Source: Anabaena sp. PCC 7108 (GTDB lineage: Bacteria > Cyanobacteriota > Cyanobacteriia > Cyanobacteriales > Nostocaceae). From it: a stretch of DNA of 64,000 nucleotides. Under the pieces are notes generated by a model, which searched no databases, was not told where the DNA came from, and saw only the letters and a list, made by a program, of their open reading frames with translations. The translations under genes and the position numbers were made by a program. The stretch covers positions 186,001 through 250,000 of the forward strand of contig NZ_KB235896.1 of NCBI RefSeq assembly GCF_000332135.1, given 5' to 3'. Positions 18,076-26,815 of this stretch are shown one piece after another (positions within the stretch are counted from its first letter, which is position 1; each line of letters begins with the position of its first letter).

Positions 18076-18537
18076 ATGTCAATGGCAATTTTTAGCAATG
18101 CTTACTCAGATGAGTTAGTGACAGCTACTGAGTTGAATAGTCAACCTGGACGAATTCTAGACAAAGCTTATGAACACCCAATTACTATTACTAGAAATGA
18201 CCAATCTTTTGCGCTGTTGCGTCGTGAGGATGTGGCTTATTTAGTGAAAGGGGTAATACAAAGTAAGGCTGTTTTTGAGGTGTTATCGGTGGCATTTCGG
18301 TTGTTGTTAGGTCAAGAAATTGGTTATGAGCATCCTTATGGTTGGTTGCGGGTTTTTGATGCGGATGAATTGCAAGATTTTATTAAAGAGGTGAGTGAGG
18401 CTTTTCGCTTAACTGATATTTCTAATGAGGCTTGGGATTTGATTGATGCTATTATTTATGAATGGAAAGAAAGTTCTATAGCTATTATTAATCCTGAGTT
18501 AGCAGCAGCTTTTAATGATGATAAGGTGAAATCATGA
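18076..18537 (+). CDS. Phd/YefM-like antitoxin with C-terminal extension (orphan)
   Basis: Residues 1-55 (AYSDELVTATELNSQPGRIL, then HPITITRNDQSFALLRRED) match the prevent-host-death (Phd/YefM) DNA-binding antitoxin fold. A further 95 residues, rich in aromatic and acidic residues (YEHPYGWLRVFDADELQDFI), form an uncharacterised tail. The ATG at 18076 is chosen over a TTG at 18052. Its stop overlaps the start of the next gene (ATGA), so the two are translationally coupled; that partner is itself antitoxin-like. No RelE/YoeB/Doc toxin is adjacent, so the toxin is either missing or unrecognised. Confidence 0.6.
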   Translation: MSMAIFSNAYSDELVTATELNSQPGRILDKAYEHPITITRNDQSFALLRREDVAYLVKGVIQSKAVFEVLSVAFRLLLGQEIGYEHPYGWLRVFDADELQDFIKEVSEAFRLTDISNEAWDLIDAIIYEWKESSIAIINPELAAAFNDDKVKS

Positions 18538-18794
18538 ATATCCAAATTAAACCGGAATTAGAGCAAATTATTCAAGCACAAATTGCAACGGGTAGATATA
18601 CAAATCCTGAAGATGTGATTAGTAAGGCTTTGAAGTTGCTTTTGGAGTGGGATAAGGGTTATCAGAATTGGGTGGAAGAAACACGGGAAAAGGTTGATGT
18701 TGCTATTGAACAATTGGATAGAGGAGAAAGTATTGATGGGGATGTTGTGATTTCACAATTGCGGGCTAAGTTGGCATTTATCAAAAACAAATAA
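18534..18794 (+). CDS. ParD-type antitoxin, copy 1
   Basis: An 86-aa protein of the ParD/CopG (ribbon-helix-helix) antitoxin type: IQIKPELEQIIQAQIATGRY, then the NPEDVISKALKLLLEWD helix pair, then an acidic C-terminal arm that would wrap a toxin. It overlaps the preceding Phd-like gene by 4 bases. No ParE toxin gene follows; the next gene on this strand encodes a small protein of another type. Copy 2 at 19649 is almost identical over the first 77 residues and diverges only at the extreme C-terminus. Confidence 0.75.
   Translation: MNIQIKPELEQIIQAQIATGRYTNPEDVISKALKLLLEWDKGYQNWVEETREKVDVAIEQLDRGESIDGDVVISQLRAKLAFIKNK
18546..18765. repeat. Direct repeat, left copy (inside ParD-type gene 1)
   Basis: About 220 bases nearly identical to 19661-19880, in the same orientation and exactly 1115 bases apart. 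Homologous recombination between the two would delete the small-protein/aspartyl-protease pair and leave one ParD-type gene. Confidence 0.85.
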
Positions 18795-18878: not shown

Positions 18879-19196
18879 ATGACTCCCGTAACATCAAAAC
18901 AACCAGCACGACGCGGAAGAATTTTTCCTGAATTGACTATCTCACCAGAAGAATTAGCTAGACGAAAAGCGGAAGATGAAGTATTTTATCAGCGTTGTCG
19001 TGCAATTTTTGATCGTGTCCGTTCTGAATATATTGAAAGTCACTATGGTTGGTATATTGGCATAGAACCAAATAGTGGTGAATACTTTCTTGCTCAAGAT
19101 AATATCCAAGCTCATAAAAAAGTCCTTGAAAAATACCCAAATGCTAAGAATTATGTGTTTTGCTTAAATGAAACAGGAACGACTGGGAGAATATGA
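18879..19196 (+). CDS. Small protein partner of a retropepsin (DUF5678-like), 105 aa
   Basis: The N-terminal part is basic then acidic-helical (LTISPEELARRKAEDEVFYQ); the C-terminal 55 residues, HYGWYIGIEPNSGEYFLAQD and LNETGTTGRI, resemble small domains annotated DUF5678 in cyanobacteria and archaea (from memory). GAGG precedes the ATG by 8 bases. The stop overlaps the start of the aspartyl-protease-like gene by 4 bases (ATGA), so the two products are made together. The function is unknown; the arrangement is toxin-antitoxin-like, or the small protein may be the protease's adaptor or substrate. Confidence 0.65.
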   Translation: MTPVTSKQPARRGRIFPELTISPEELARRKAEDEVFYQRCRAIFDRVRSEYIESHYGWYIGIEPNSGEYFLAQDNIQAHKKVLEKYPNAKNYVFCLNETGTTGRI

Positions 19197-19555
19197 TTCA
19201 GGGAAATTTTGGTGGTGAGGGGCAGCTATTTTTTGAGATTGATTTGATTACTGCTGATGGTTTACATTTGCCTGTAGATGCGATGTTAGATACAGGTTTT
19301 ACCAAGTTTATGGCAATTAATACCCAAGATTTAGATGGACTTGATTGGGTTTTTCTTGGTAATGAACCTATGCAAACAGCACAAGGTGAATCAAGGTTTA
19401 ATATCTATTTAGGTAAGGTAATATTAGATGGTAAGGAATATGAAATTCCTGTTTATGTAGGGGATAATATTACAGAAGTTTTATTAGGTTCTGAATGGTT
19501 GAAGTTTTTGCGTTTGGTTGTGGATTTTCCAGAAGGTATTTTAACTTTGGGATGA
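19193..19555 (+). CDS. Retropepsin-like clan AA aspartyl protease, 120 aa
   Basis: A single-lobed aspartic protease fold: the catalytic motif LDTGFTKF (D-T-G) follows the strand LHLPVDAM, and the second half has the hydrophobic-hydrophobic-glycine element EVLLGSEWL. It would need to dimerise to form an active site, as in retroviral proteases. There is no signal peptide, so it is probably cytoplasmic. It overlaps the upstream 105-aa gene by 4 bases. The pair sits between two near-identical ParD-type genes. The substrate is unknown. Confidence 0.72.
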   Translation: MIQGNFGGEGQLFFEIDLITADGLHLPVDAMLDTGFTKFMAINTQDLDGLDWVFLGNEPMQTAQGESRFNIYLGKVILDGKEYEIPVYVGDNITEVLLGSEWLKFLRLVVDFPEGILTLG

Positions 19556-19648: not shown

Positions 19649-19915
19649 ATGACTATTCAAATTAAACCGGAATTAGAGCAAATTATTCAAGCGCAAATTG
19701 CAACGGGTAGATATACAAATCCTGAAGATGTAATTAGTAAGGCTTTGAAGTTGCTTTTGGAGTGGGATAAGGGTTATCAGAATTGGGTGGAGGAAACACG
19801 GGAAAAGGTTGATGTTGCTATTGAACAATTGGATAGAGGTGAAGGTATTGATGGAGATGTTGTGATTTCACAATTGCGGGATAAGTTGCGTCAAGCGAGA
19901 GAAATACAAGGATGA
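19649..19915 (+). CDS. ParD-type antitoxin, copy 2
   Basis: 88 aa, nearly the same as the protein at 18534 (changes at residue 2, one Ser to Gly, and an Ala to Asp) until residue 77, then a different tail (RQAREIQG). The DNA is almost identical, which points to a recent segmental duplication. There is no ParE toxin next to it: the following gene is a minus-strand PIN toxin with its own antitoxin. It may regulate a toxin elsewhere or be a relic. Confidence 0.75.
   Translation: MTIQIKPELEQIIQAQIATGRYTNPEDVISKALKLLLEWDKGYQNWVEETREKVDVAIEQLDRGEGIDGDVVISQLRDKLRQAREIQG
19661..19880. repeat. Direct repeat, right copy (inside ParD-type gene 2)
   Basis: Partner of 18546-18765; see that entry. The upstream flank (19560-19610) is a degenerate GCAAAGACGCAAAG repeat, a common cassette border in this island. 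Confidence 0.85.
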
Positions 19916-20637: not shown

Positions 20638-20970
20638 CTAAACCGATGCAAACCCAGTAAACTGTCTCACATAAGGTGATCTAAAAGCTAAAACAATATC
20701 TGTTTTCGGTACTCCTAACTCTACTAATTGATGAGGAATTCCTTCTTCCGTAAAATCTCTTTCAATCCAAATTTTACCATCTTTAATACTAATATGAATG
20801 GGACAACCATAAATTCTATTTTCATCCTTCCATCCTGTATATAACAATAAATAAATATCCCGTTCTGTATCAAACACAATTTCTGTGTGTTCTAAATCTT
20901 CCTCTGCTTGGTCTTTTGCGTATTTAGAGATAATATCTTTTACTATCTCTTGATAATTTAAGGTTTCCAT
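20638..20970 (-). CDS. xisI: XisI family protein, copy 1
   Basis: A 110-aa member of the fdxN-element excision controlling factor XisI family: NYQEIVKDIISKY at the N-terminus, YLLLYTGWKDENRIYG, then KIWIERDFTEEGIPHQLVE and the hallmark GVPKTDIVLAFRSPYVRQ. In Anabaena XisI works with XisH to permit excision of the fdxN element during heterocyst development, but the family is widespread and multicopy where no such element exists. It begins 13 bases inside the 3' end of xisH copy 1. Its last 25 residues match XisI copy 3 almost exactly although the N-terminal half is divergent. Confidence 0.92.
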   Translation of the reverse strand: METLNYQEIVKDIISKYAKDQAEEDLEHTEIVFDTERDIYLLLYTGWKDENRIYGCPIHISIKDGKIWIERDFTEEGIPHQLVELGVPKTDIVLAFRSPYVRQFTGFASV

Positions 20971-21377
20971 AACACTATTTCCTCCTTATTAATGTCAAAA
21001 ACTAATAATTTAATCTCATAAGTTTGTAAAACAGTTTGAATGAAACTATCAGTAAAAAACTCTTGATATATGTCTTGAGATATAGCTAAATATAATATTC
21101 TTTCGGGGTCTTGCTGTCCTAATGCTATCCTATAATTTAAAAATTGACCAATAGCTGTATGAAATTCAGAAATTGCTGAAAGTCCTAGAAAACTTTTTAC
21201 TTCTACGGCTATCTTGTGATTATCTTTCTCAGCGTCAATTAACTTTTCTGCATCTAAATCTATCCTAATTTTAACTAATGCTGTTAGGCGCAAATATAAA
21301 GGATCATCAGTAATTTGCCAATTCTCCTTTTCTAAGGCTATTTTAACTGTATTGTGAAATATATCTTTTGCTGACAT
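20958..21377 (-). CDS. xisH: XisH family protein, copy 1
   Basis: 139 aa. N-terminal SAKDIFHNTVKIALEKENW, then the nuclease-like core: IRIDLDAEKLIDAEK and IAVEVKSFLGLSAISEF, with Asp and Glu-x-Lys spaced as in PD-(D/E)XK nucleases, followed by IGQFLNYR. XisH is classed with that nuclease superfamily; activity is not proven. It is the most diverged of the three copies here. It is encoded first, overlapping xisI by 13 bases. Confidence 0.92.
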   Translation of the reverse strand: MSAKDIFHNTVKIALEKENWQITDDPLYLRLTALVKIRIDLDAEKLIDAEKDNHKIAVEVKSFLGLSAISEFHTAIGQFLNYRIALGQQDPERILYLAISQDIYQEFFTDSFIQTVLQTYEIKLLVFDINKEEIVLWKP

Positions 21378-21512: not shown

Positions 21513-21842
21513 CTAACCCACTGCAAAACCAGTAAATTCCCTCACAACAGGAGATTTAAAACCTAAAACTATATCGGTTTTTGGTACTCCTAATTCTACC
21601 AGTTCACTAGCTACACCTTCTTCAGTTAAATCTCGCTGAATCCAGATTTTTCCATCTCTAATATCTACATGAATAACTGTACCATAAGCCCTTTCGTTAT
21701 TCTGCCATCCTACATGAACTACTAAATAACTATTTCTTTCACAATCAAAAATTAACTCCTTTTCTGTTCCTTCTGATCTATGATTTTCGGTATGTCTTGC
21801 TAACACGGTTTTTACTAATTCAGGATAATTCATTCCTTCCAT
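21513..21842 (-). CDS. xisI: XisI family protein, copy 2
   Basis: 109 aa, starting MEGMNYPELVKTVLARHTEN; core YLVVHVGWQNNERAYG and KIWIQRDLTEEGVASELVE, then GVPKTDIVLGFKSPVVREF. It differs from copies 1 and 3 at the C-terminus (SPVVREFTGFAVG). It overlaps xisH copy 2 by the same 13 bases as in the other pairs. Confidence 0.93.
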   Translation of the reverse strand: MEGMNYPELVKTVLARHTENHRSEGTEKELIFDCERNSYLVVHVGWQNNERAYGTVIHVDIRDGKIWIQRDLTEEGVASELVELGVPKTDIVLGFKSPVVREFTGFAVG

Positions 21843-22246
21843 AAAACAATCTCCTGTTTAATAATTTCAAAAATCAATAATTTTAATTTATGTTCAGCAA
21901 TTATTTCTTGAATAAACGGAATTAGAAAAAACTCTTTGTATATGTCATTACCAATTGCTAGATATAAGATACGGTTGGGTTCTTTTTTTCTTAAAACAGT
22001 ACGATAATTAAGTGTTTGTCCTAAAGCTGTATGAAATTCAGTAACCTCAGATTGTCCTAAAAAAGATTTTACCTCAACTGCTATTTTTTGACCTTCTTTT
22101 TCTGCTCCTAATAGTCTTTCTGCTCCTAAATCAATTCTAAAGTCAAGACCATCTACTGTAAATGATAAAGGATCATTAGTAATTAACCAACCATCTTTTT
22201 CTAAAGCTAACCTGACTGCATTATGAAAAAAATCTTTTGCTGACAT
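21830..22246 (-). CDS. xisH: XisH family protein, copy 2
   Basis: 138 aa. The putative nuclease residues are D39 (FRIDLGAE), E58 and K60 (AVEVKSF). It is close to copy 3 (SAKDFFHNAVRLALEKDGW shared) and more distant from copy 1. Its start lies about 210 bases from the reverse transcriptase start on the opposite strand, so the two are divergently transcribed from a shared region containing AT-rich DNA (TACTACAATATATAGTA) and a three-hairpin repeat. Confidence 0.93.
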   Translation of the reverse strand: MSAKDFFHNAVRLALEKDGWLITNDPLSFTVDGLDFRIDLGAERLLGAEKEGQKIAVEVKSFLGQSEVTEFHTALGQTLNYRTVLRKKEPNRILYLAIGNDIYKEFFLIPFIQEIIAEHKLKLLIFEIIKQEIVLWKE

Positions 22247-22306
22247 AGGGATAAATTTATACTACAATATATAGTATATTAATTTGGGTATTTACAAAAA
22301 GCCCTG

Positions 22307-22405
22307 GCGATTAGAAATCGCGGCTATACAAACGAAGTCCACCTGCGTGGACTAAAAACAAGATTTTTGAACCCGCAAAGGCGGGTTTTGTCTGTGTAGA
22401 CGCGA
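22307..22405 (+). ncRNA. Three consecutive hairpins upstream of the reverse transcriptase (dispersed repeat or RT-associated RNA)
   Basis: Three perfect hairpins lie in 81 bases: GCGATT/AATCGC (22307-22321), AGTCCAC/GTGGACT (22336-22353) and AACCCGC/GCGGGTT (22370-22387). The outer segments (GCGGCTATACAAAC and GTCTGTGTAGACGCG) are imperfect inverted repeats, so the unit could be a MITE. Similar units are, as I recall, scattered through Nostocales genomes, which argues for a mobile repeat. However, it ends about 50 bases before the reverse transcriptase gene on the same strand, where several anti-phage reverse transcriptases carry their RNA partner. Both readings stay open. Confidence 0.45.
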
Positions 22406-22456
22406 ATTATATTGGGTAGAGTAAATTGAGTCTTATTATTGACATTGTAATACTTC

Positions 22457-24208
22457 ATGCTAAATTGTACTGAAGACTTAAAACAGATATTTTACCCAAG
22501 TACAATGACGGAAAATAATTCTCCCCTTATTCAGACCAAAGATTTTATTAGCAGTGGTTTTTTTCCTAAAGAGTTAGTCCCAGCATTTACAACAGAAGGA
22601 CTTGCAAATAATCTTGATAAAGTGAACGATATTGTTCAAGCCACTTTACCAAAACATTTTAGTCAGTGTTCTTATTATTCATTCCCAAAAAGTAAATATT
22701 CTCGTCGTAATTTAGCAATTCCTAATCCTCTGCATCAAATCATCTTATGTAATACATTATCTGATAATTGGGCAACTCTGAGACAAAAGATCGAAACTTC
22801 TCCTTTATATAAACCATTACTTTTTTGCTATGACAGAAGTAATCAATCCTTATCAGAAACTGAACCCTATCCAGGTATGGAATCTTCTCCTATTCCTGAT
22901 TTAAGTATTAAACGGGCTGTATCTGCCAATTATAAAGATTTGTTAGATTGGCGAGTTATTCATTCATCAGGTTATTCTTATTGTCTTCATACTGATATTT
23001 CAAGATTTTATTCTACTATTTATACTCATAGTATTCCGTGGGCGATTCATGGGAAATATATCTCCAAAAAAAATAAAAATAAGGAAGATGGAGAATGTGC
23101 AATAGGCAATAAAATTGATCGTTGTGTTCGTAATACGCAAGAGCAACAAACTAAAGGTATTCCTATCGGAACTGATTCATCATTAGTTATAGCTGAAATT
23201 ATTGGTTCTGCTATAGATAAAAAACTTAACGAACTATTAGGTTCTACTTTATCTGGATTTCGTTATATGGATGATTATTATTTATATTTTAACTCTCTTT
23301 CAGAGGCAGAACTGGCACTCTCTCAACTACATAAAATATTTCACGATTTTGAATTAGAAACTAACTCAGAGAAAACATTTATTGTTGAACTTCCTGAATC
23401 TATTGAGCCGATTTGGGTTTCAGAAATGAGAAGACATCCTATTGATAATCAAAACAAAACAGAACAGCGCAATGATCTTATAACTTATTTTAGTAAATTA
23501 TTTGAATATTCCAAAATATTTACAGATGATTTTGTAATTAAATATGGTCTTCGTAGAATTAGTAAAACTAAAATAAAATCCGAGAATTGGGAAATTTATG
23601 AAGCGTTTATACTGCAATCAATCTTATTCGCACCTAACGCCTTAGTTATCGCTACGGAAATACTATGGGCATATTCTAAATTAGAATATAACTTAAACAA
23701 AGAAAGAATATCTTTAACTATTAATTCGCTAATTTTACGTCATAGTATTTTGAATCATAGTCATGAAGTCTCATGGGCATTGTGGCTAAGTAAGACGCTG
23801 AATATACCAATTGAAGAAAACACATTTAAGGCAATTTGTGAATTAGAGGATTCTGTTGTTGCACTTGTCGCTTTAGATTTATATCAAAATCATAATACTC
23901 TTATTAGAGGTACATTTGAATTTGAGAAATGGAAAAGTATAGTCACACCCGACGATTATAATAATAATTTATATTCTAAAAATTGGCTTTTATGTTATGA
24001 AGCTAGTATAAAAGGATTTTTTTCTAATGTTAGCCAAAGCGAATATATGAACAATAATAATCAATTCTTTTCTACATTAAAAAATAACAATATAACTTTC
24101 TACAACCATGACAATCAAGTTCAAGATTTATTAGAATATATAGATAATGATGAAGCAGATGATGAAGCAGATGATGATACAAGTAGCAATAGTTGGATGT
24201 CATACTAA
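22457..24208 (+). CDS. Reverse transcriptase of the Abi/UG (DRT-like) group, putative anti-phage
   Basis: A 583-aa RNA-directed DNA polymerase. Motif A: HTDISRFYSTIYTHSIPWAI, catalytic D180; motif B: KGIPIGTDSSLVIAEI (233-248); motif C: FRYMDDYYLYF, YMDD at 270-273; motif D: LETNSEKTFIV. The IYTHSIPWAIHGK and GIP.G.DSS..IAEI patterns are those of the Abi/UNKNOWN-group RTs used in phage defence (DRT systems), not of group II introns, retrons or DGRs. The C-terminal 250 residues are helical with no known domain, as in that class, ending in an acidic DEADDEADDD tail. No maturase, HNH, protease or nitrilase part is seen. Start 22457 is the longest; M17 (22505) is an alternative. Flanked by xisH-xisI pairs on both sides. 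Confidence 0.85.
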   Translation: MLNCTEDLKQIFYPSTMTENNSPLIQTKDFISSGFFPKELVPAFTTEGLANNLDKVNDIVQATLPKHFSQCSYYSFPKSKYSRRNLAIPNPLHQIILCNTLSDNWATLRQKIETSPLYKPLLFCYDRSNQSLSETEPYPGMESSPIPDLSIKRAVSANYKDLLDWRVIHSSGYSYCLHTDISRFYSTIYTHSIPWAIHGKYISKKNKNKEDGECAIGNKIDRCVRNTQEQQTKGIPIGTDSSLVIAEIIGSAIDKKLNELLGSTLSGFRYMDDYYLYFNSLSEAELALSQLHKIFHDFELETNSEKTFIVELPESIEPIWVSEMRRHPIDNQNKTEQRNDLITYFSKLFEYSKIFTDDFVIKYGLRRISKTKIKSENWEIYEAFILQSILFAPNALVIATEILWAYSKLEYNLNKERISLTINSLILRHSILNHSHEVSWALWLSKTLNIPIEENTFKAICELEDSVVALVALDLYQNHNTLIRGTFEFEKWKSIVTPDDYNNNLYSKNWLLCYEASIKGFFSNVSQSEYMNNNNQFFSTLKNNNITFYNHDNQVQDLLEYIDNDEADDEADDDTSSNSWMSY

Positions 24209-24326
24209 GTAATTTATATTCCTGTATAACTATCCTTTTACTCTTCTCTTCTTTCTTCGTGTTCTTCCTGCCTTTGTGGTTCGTTAAATAAATTCACAAG
24301 AAAAACTAATAAAAAACAGAAAAAAT

Positions 24327-24656
24327 CTAAACCGATGCAAAACCAGTAAATTGTCTCACATAAGGTGATCTAAAACCTAAAACAATATCTGTTTTTGGTA
24401 CTCCTAACTCTACCAACTCATTAGCTACTCCTTCCTCTGTAAAATCACACTGTATCCAGATTTTTCCATCCTTAATATCAACATGAATCACCGAACCATA
24501 AGTTCGTTTTTCACCTTCCCAACCTAGATGAATTACTAAATAGTGATTTTTTTGATTATCAAGTATTAATTGTATTTCCGTTCCCTTAGCTAAATGACTT
24601 TCTGTATGTCTTGCTAATACTGTTTGTACTAATTCAGGGTAATTTATTCCTTCCAT
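24327..24656 (-). CDS. xisI: XisI family protein, copy 3
   Basis: 109 aa: MEGINYPELVQTVLARHTES, YLVIHLGWEGEKRTYG, KIWIQCDFTEEGVANELVE, GVPKTDIVLGFRSPYVRQ. The first three quarters resemble copy 2, whereas the last 25 codons match copy 1 nearly base for base. A Cys replaces the Arg found in the other two copies at IQ(R)D. It converges on the reverse transcriptase gene and overlaps xisH copy 3 by 13 bases. Confidence 0.93.
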   Translation of the reverse strand: MEGINYPELVQTVLARHTESHLAKGTEIQLILDNQKNHYLVIHLGWEGEKRTYGSVIHVDIKDGKIWIQCDFTEEGVANELVELGVPKTDIVLGFRSPYVRQFTGFASV

Positions 24657-25060
24657 AAAACAATCTGCTCCTTCCTAGTTTCAAATATCAATAATTTTAA
24701 TTTATATTCAGCAATTATTTCTTGAATCACAGGTATCAGAAAAAAAGCTGTATAGATTTCATAACTAATTGCTAAATATAAAATACGATCAGGTGCTTCT
24801 CTTCCTAAAATATAACGGTAATTAAGTGTTTGTCCTAAAGCTGTATGAAATTCACTAATCGCTGATTTTCCCAAAAAAGATTTTATTTCAACTGCTATTT
24901 TTTCTCCTTCTTTTTCTGCTGCTAGAAGTCTTTCCGCTCCTAAATCAAGACGAAATTCTATAGTATCTACTATAAATCTTAAAGGATCGTCAGTAATTAA
25001 CCAACCATCTTTTTCTAAAGCTAACCTAACTGCATTGTGAAAAAAATCTTTTGCTGACAT
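24644..25060 (-). CDS. xisH: XisH family protein, copy 3
   Basis: 138 aa, close to copy 2. The nuclease-like residues are kept: Asp in FRLDLGAERL and Glu-x-Lys in IAVEIKSFLGK. It is the right-hand member of the three pairs. A degenerate GCCTCTGCGCCTCTGAG repeat at 25105-25125 lies between it and ahcY and marks the island border. Confidence 0.93.
   Translation of the reverse strand: MSAKDFFHNAVRLALEKDGWLITDDPLRFIVDTIEFRLDLGAERLLAAEKEGEKIAVEIKSFLGKSAISEFHTALGQTLNYRYILGREAPDRILYLAISYEIYTAFFLIPVIQEIIAEYKLKLLIFETRKEQIVLWKE

Positions 25061-25181: not shown

Positions 25182-26815
<1,634 letters not shown>

Follow-up and report, generated by a model that had tools for sequence, protein, structure and literature searches.

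Between pairs of xisHI genes in Anabaena sp. PCC 7108 lies a gene for a reverse transcriptase (RT), in a stretch of 64,000 nucleotides (contig NZ_KB235896.1, positions 186,001 to 250,000; hereafter the window, by which all positions are counted). Do the RT and the flanking xisHI genes form a defence system of a new composition, as the first-pass annotation proposed, or does the RT belong to a known type and act alone? Our analysis favours the latter. The gene seems to encode a stand-alone DRT6-type RT, which would act as a homo-oligomer, synthesise DNA without a template from a primer of its own, probably Tyr583, and cause growth arrest on infection. The probability that we give to this reading is roughly 0.72. 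We regard the protein as a genuine but ordinary RT of the defence type, whose last residue may provide an interesting clue. The features of the gene are as follows.

22457..24208, + strand: DRT6-type RT, 583 codons (family profile, relative's start, structure match)
22994..23275, + strand: catalytic core of the RT, from motif A (D180) to YMDD (translation; columns conserved in the homologue set)
24104..24205, + strand: acidic C-terminal tail, residues 550-583, which follows the conserved FY and ends in SWMSY (predicted local distance difference test score, pLDDT; tail statistics)
24203..24205, + strand: codon of Tyr583, the predicted primer residue (terminal-Tyr bias; function by analogy with DRT3b and DRT10)

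The open reading frame (ORF) of 583 codons was taken from the translation of the window, and Pfam RVT_1 matches it above the cut-off. Motif A reads DISRFY, motif B reads GIPIGTDSSLVIAEI (23156-23200), and YMDD occupies residues 270-273 (23264-23275). All the catalytic motifs that had been claimed for this protein are present in the translation, and D180 and YMDD are intact and conserved across the homologue set. The long helical C-terminus noticed at first pass corresponds to a helical domain that follows the RT domain in the AlphaFold model. Residues 1-18 are disordered in this model. Since a relative with 71% identity begins at Met17, and in view of this disorder, codons 1-16 are probably not translated; the true start is probably Met17, at 22505.

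Profile scores and fold comparison agree that the protein is a defence-type RT of the Abi/UG lineage, as had been proposed. Group II RTs are not nearest to it among the family profiles and solved folds, nor do retron or diversity-generating retroelement RTs appear to be, and the group II maturase profile TIGR04416 stays below its cut-off (39 bits vs 300). The proposed place in the lineage of the DRT systems therefore stands. The accompanying statement that the RT could not be assigned to a named DRT type, and with it the word undescribed, has to be given up, since both a PADLOC profile and the fold of a solved structure name it as DRT6, which we take to be UG12. The DRT6 fold is matched over the RT and helical domains. 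The best PADLOC profile, PDLC03748 (DRT6), scores 545 bits, the top of 40 families, in a comparison read without a cut-off value. Its lead is narrow. The 'Drt4' models PDLC02177 and PDLC02179 are nearly as good (530 and 513 bits), which would be the argument for a DRT4 enzyme, presumably equivalent to UG15. The window RT stays below the curated Drt4 cut-off of NCBIfam (NF041749, 221 bits vs 450), and we regard the DRT4 assignment as very unlikely. The window RT is a DRT6-type RT of class 1 UG/Abi with intact motifs.

According to the portions of the reviews surveyed, DRT4 makes random single-stranded DNA (ssDNA) without a template, phage ORF55 shields the 3' end of this product, and the accumulated DNA is toxic (PMC13213688, PMC13314766). 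The same portions state that ORF55 activates DRT6 too; the product of DRT6 is, by their account, resolved less well than that of DRT4, or not fully characterised (PMC13213688, PMC13314766). By analogy, the window RT would probably be a homo-oligomer, like its solved DRT6 relative, and would polymerise DNA without a nucleic-acid template. The strand would probably be started on a side chain of the RT itself; the likeliest primer would be the C-terminal Tyr583, which may reach the YMDD site on its flexible acidic tether. Infection would be the trigger. As in DRT4 and DRT6, a phage DNA-binding protein would shield the product from nucleases, so that ssDNA would build up and the infected cell would stop growing. 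The RT gene apparently needs no neighbour.

Priming on protein is an established property of the class to which this RT belongs. In the excerpts of the literature surveyed, the primers are Tyr496/Tyr498 in the C-terminal tail of DRT9 (PMC12483538), Tyr666 within the C-terminal tail 622-667 of DRT3b (PMC13174585), Ser456 of 456 in Eco3DRT10 and likely Tyr444 in Eco1DRT10 (PMC12632851), and the internal Ser402 in DRT1 (PMC13275509).

The ends of the homologues were analyzed on a tail set, from which 25 rows were dropped (too short, X-containing or below 200 bits) and in which 6 entries gave way to longer sequences of the region concerned. This left 86, and 70 full-length sequences, the window RT included, after removal at 80% identity. 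As background we used the 1079 longest non-overlapping frames of at least 150 residues in the same loci. These frames do not come from a gene annotation, and RT-like frames from the dropped rows are among them. Beyond the conserved FY (548-549), the homologues diverge strongly. Their tails range from 13 to 146 residues in length (median 36.5, n=70) and are net negative in 57 of the 70 sequences; in the model of the window RT, residues 571-583 are disordered (pLDDT <50). A terminal Tyr was found in 27 of the 70 RTs vs 23 of the 1079 background frames (P 3e-22), and a terminal Tyr, Phe or Trp in 38 vs 91. Counted from the last position inward, Tyr occurs in 27, 3, 4, 8 and 5 of the 70 sequences, with a peak at the end only. 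When the final 8, 15 or 25 residues were shuffled, no trial reached 27 terminal Tyr (20,000 trials each). If each 45%-identity group is represented by a single sequence, 14 of 36 end in Tyr. The four tree members of the window clade and a near-copy (L028) all have a Trp-containing tip with a final Tyr (SWMSY, SWMLY, FWFWY, YYWMY), on a tether that varies in length and letters.

Several facts weigh against Tyr583 as the primer. A Tyr of the tail cannot be universal in this role, since 43 of the 70 sequences end in another residue and the tails of 9 lack Tyr entirely. Nor does priming explain why terminal Phe is overrepresented (10 of 70 vs 55 of 1079, P 0.004). On a quick tree, used for the terminal-Tyr counts, the final Tyr shows 18-19 gains or losses, of which starred branches force 14, and clustering as strong arose in 7 of 500 label shuffles; on the separate first tree, where the comparison was restricted to rows with terminal Phe/Trp, no clustering was seen (78 of 500). 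Terminal Tyr has therefore been gained and lost often. Seven viral rows were held out (L172, L174, L176, L178, L180, L181 and L182), two of them contigs of dropped rows and one, L176, 80% identical to L122. Two end in Tyr, two in Phe and three in other residues, a sample too small to confirm the bias; of three more distant rows, L168 and L184 have a final Arg and L185 a final Thr. The tail is unplaced and disordered in both AlphaFold models. Within class 1, AbiK is primed from Tyr44 of an N-terminal loop, according to the excerpt surveyed (PMC9508834), and the portions of the literature that were surveyed treat no cyanobacterial member. A primer of the AbiK kind was itself considered and rejected, as every Tyr ahead of residue 185 falls short of 80% conservation across the 70 sequences. 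The Tyr residues that reach it are Tyr185 (58 of 70), Tyr189 (70), Tyr514 (69) and Tyr549 (59).

There is another way to read the aromatic C-terminus, namely as a docking or autoinhibitory tip, with priming by another residue. The tip sequence at the C-terminus of the single-stranded DNA-binding protein (SSB) binds exonuclease I. The RT tail might mimic it and recruit host proteins that bind SSB, exonuclease I for instance, or it might plug the RT's own active site. The excess of Phe and the acidity of the tails speak for such a role, as do SSB-tip-like ends in 3 of the 70 sequences (EDLPFI in L033, DDLPF in L040, DDIPY in L083) vs 1 of the 1079 background ORFs, and a fourth in the hold-out row L176 (DDDDDDLPF). 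L033 and L040 form one clade on the first tree, L083 stands elsewhere, and L176 is close to L122. At the terminus, however, Tyr is found 27 times and Phe 10 times, the reverse of the background, where Phe is the commoner of the two (55 vs 23), and the window tip SWMSY is not SSB-like. We consider this reading, with priming by another residue, unlikely. Some members of the family are nevertheless likely to use the tip for a second role, since 43 of 70 sequences end otherwise, Phe is in excess and four ends resemble the SSB tip.

For the Tyr-ended lineages, the terminal Tyr as primer would be the simplest reading, since protein priming is established in the class and the AbiK-like region has no well-conserved Tyr. 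More tentatively, and with some doubt, DRT6-type RTs may carry a built-in terminal protein, in which a mostly acidic tether of 13-146 residues would bring the last residue, Tyr more often than any other, into the active site, where the toxic DNA would begin covalently on it, and lineages that lost the hydroxyl (Phe, SSB-like tips) would reuse the tail for docking or control. The parts of the literature surveyed contain no statement on the DRT6 C-terminus; the DRT6 structure paper may contain one.

Whether the RT acts alone depends on its neighbours, of which the xisHI genes are the nearest.

20638..21377, minus strand: xisHI pair 1, an apparent bystander (XisI 20638-20970, XisH 20958-21377; Pfam)
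21513..22246, minus strand: xisHI pair 2, an apparent bystander (XisI 21513-21842, XisH 21830-22246; Pfam)
24327..25060, minus strand: xisHI pair 3, an apparent bystander (XisI 24327-24656, XisH 24644-25060; XisH search, XisI by likeness)

The RT lies in the gap between pairs 2 and 3 (22247-24326). That xisHI stands on both sides of it was borne out, with three real pairs, two on the left and one on the right. Both proteins of pairs 1 and 2 are supported by Pfam; in pair 3, XisH came from a genome search for XisH, and XisI is recognised solely by its likeness to the other two. The genome has seven XisH matches, four apparently full length, and three of these four adjoin the RT, within 4 kb. 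The impression of a special arrangement is therefore natural, and it is what speaks for the RT with its flanking XisH and XisI as one new system. Linkage of the homologues to xisHI within 5 kb had been set beforehand as the deciding test. The three XisH and three XisI proteins were compared by tblastn with 94 homologue loci, a few of which are the same genome twice and 60 of which include 5 kb or more of flanking sequence at either end. XisH was found at none of the 94, and a lone XisI at one, about 8.5 kb from the RT, in Nostoc parmelioides. Homologues without xisHI linkage are the outcome that the first-pass annotation had itself named as refuting its proposal. This is not due to scarcity of xisH, since all 9 cyanobacterial genomes checked carry it (2-10 matches each). 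In the five RT-bearing cyanobacterial genomes, with 2-10 matches each, no XisH lies within 34 kb of the RT; the shortest distance along an RT contig is about 34.6 kb (G128), and in G131 the contig with the RT has no XisH. In the sister genomes G002 and G004, xisHI occupies the corresponding slot without an RT. Moreover, RT and xisHI are on opposite strands. XisHI was thus rejected as the partner of the RT, and the xisHI genes beside it look like bystanders. The joint system is already largely refuted and seems to us extremely improbable, and the new composition falls with it.

The slot itself is bounded by the following features.

22297..22413, + strand: palindromic dispersed repeat at the left cargo edge, not specific to the RT (18 genome matches)
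24236..24316, + strand: short dispersed repeat at the right cargo edge (14 genome matches)
25182..26459, minus strand: presumably ahcY (adenosylhomocysteinase), the conserved anchor, beside the slot in G001-G004

The window was compared with the ahcY-side region in four other genomes of the genus (G001-G004). The cargo differs in each, and none has the RT. G001 has a 736-residue protein with an HSDR_N-type match below the cut-off, G002 a 527-residue protein read from its sequence as a coiled coil, G003 an 823-residue protein with Mrr_cat above and STAND/AAA matches below the cut-off, and G004 three ORFs without a Pfam match above it. All four slots contain complete or fragmentary XisH or XisI. 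Both repeat counts include the window copy, and the left repeat is 98% identical in G003 and G004, ahead of different cargo genes. Homology to the window ends at 22413 and resumes at 24249 (G003) and 24242 (G004); the window therefore holds the RT alone between the repeats, where G003 and G004 hold other genes. Since the left-hand shared sequence at the breakpoint is the repeat alone, and the right-hand match of G003 covers 68 bases only before homology jumps to 25128, we infer rather than observe an exchange of cargo between the repeats. The RT appears to move as a single-gene cargo through this variable slot.

The left repeat also bears on a class 2-like mechanism, in which the RT would copy a folded RNA of the 22297-22413 region. 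The 210-nt gap upstream of the RT indeed folds better than shuffles (z -4.3). The folded stretch is, however, the dispersed repeat, which precedes unrelated cargo genes in G003 and G004; Rfam gave no match in the window at gathering scores, and the fold and family of the RT are class 1. An upstream non-coding RNA (ncRNA) was rejected on these grounds, and we give an RNA-templated RT almost no credence.

Other contents of the slot and its surroundings deserve mention. PADLOC gave five slot proteins of G001, G003 and G004 no name beyond a weak mad8 match. Among the slot loci L154-L157, L155:6879-9350 (Mrr-nuclease and NTPase-like) and L157:5229-7439 (736 residues, HSDR_N-like) are candidate unnamed defence genes. 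L155:4999-5460 joins a stretch that looks by eye like Phd/YefM to XisI in one frame, and would be an antitoxin-XisI fusion. In the window, two nearly identical ParD-like ORFs (18534-18794 and 19649-19915) indicate a duplication in a variable stretch, the ParD match of the former being just below the Pfam cut-off. An ORF at 19193-19555, in a toxin-antitoxin-like stretch, has a DTG motif, which we take to resemble clan AA aspartic proteases.

Among 198 related genomes, 16 match the RT in a protein search at E 0.001, and 6 match most of its length with at least 38% identity, the others only part (own genome included in both counts); a profile search at E 1e-60 was positive in 5 of 386 cyanobacterial genomes, again with its own. 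Among 84,980 species genomes, 247 relatives were found, the best 80 of which were kept. The viral contigs gave 16 relatives, and single-protein viral scans no further homologues. In the tree, the window RT groups with three cyanobacterial proteins with full support in the Shimodaira-Hasegawa-like approximate likelihood-ratio test, and the next neighbours are Bacillota sequences. This pattern suggests horizontal spread. Over 4 kb around the RT, no family of neighbouring genes is shared by more than 6 of the 70 loci. As expected of a single-gene DRT6, there is no recurrent neighbour, and the RT stands alone between the two repeats. This, the membership in DRT6, the intact catalytic motifs, the differing cargoes of the slot and the terminal-Tyr bias are direct observations of the present analysis.

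In three viral contigs (L109, L110, L122), genes that look by eye like phage-tail genes adjoin DRT6-type RTs, a context consistent with carriage as prophage cargo. In the sub-clade L067, L076, L078 and L111, an ORF of about 230 residues, membrane-protein-like by eye, is repeatedly found near the RT. Its end lies a few bases upstream of the RT in L076 and L078, which may represent a two-gene variant.

The combination of RT and XisHI is thereby removed from the candidate new compositions, and the RT gains the name DRT6. The terminal-Tyr bias offers a one-residue test of how DRT6 begins DNA synthesis, and the ahcY slot is a place in a cyanobacterial genus to seek further unnamed defence genes.

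Among known systems, the solved DRT6 hexamer (PDB 9wy8) is alike over the whole fold, with 494 of 495 residues aligned at 36% identity, and shares the acidic tail. The window RT differs from it in belonging to a sequence-divergent cyanobacterial branch; its tail ends in SWMSY, and the tail end of the solved protein lies outside the compared alignment. With DRT4 (PDB 9vdo, 9l9s), identity is only 21%. AbiK and Abi-P2 use Tyr primers of an N-terminal loop (Y44, Y61), whereas the DRT6-type set has no 80%-conserved Tyr before 185. DRT3b and DRT10 resemble the window RT in their terminal or near-terminal priming residue (Y666; S456, the last residue of Eco3DRT10). They differ in that DRT3b works with Drt3a and an ncRNA, and DRT10 with SLATT and an ncRNA, whereas the window RT is a lone gene.
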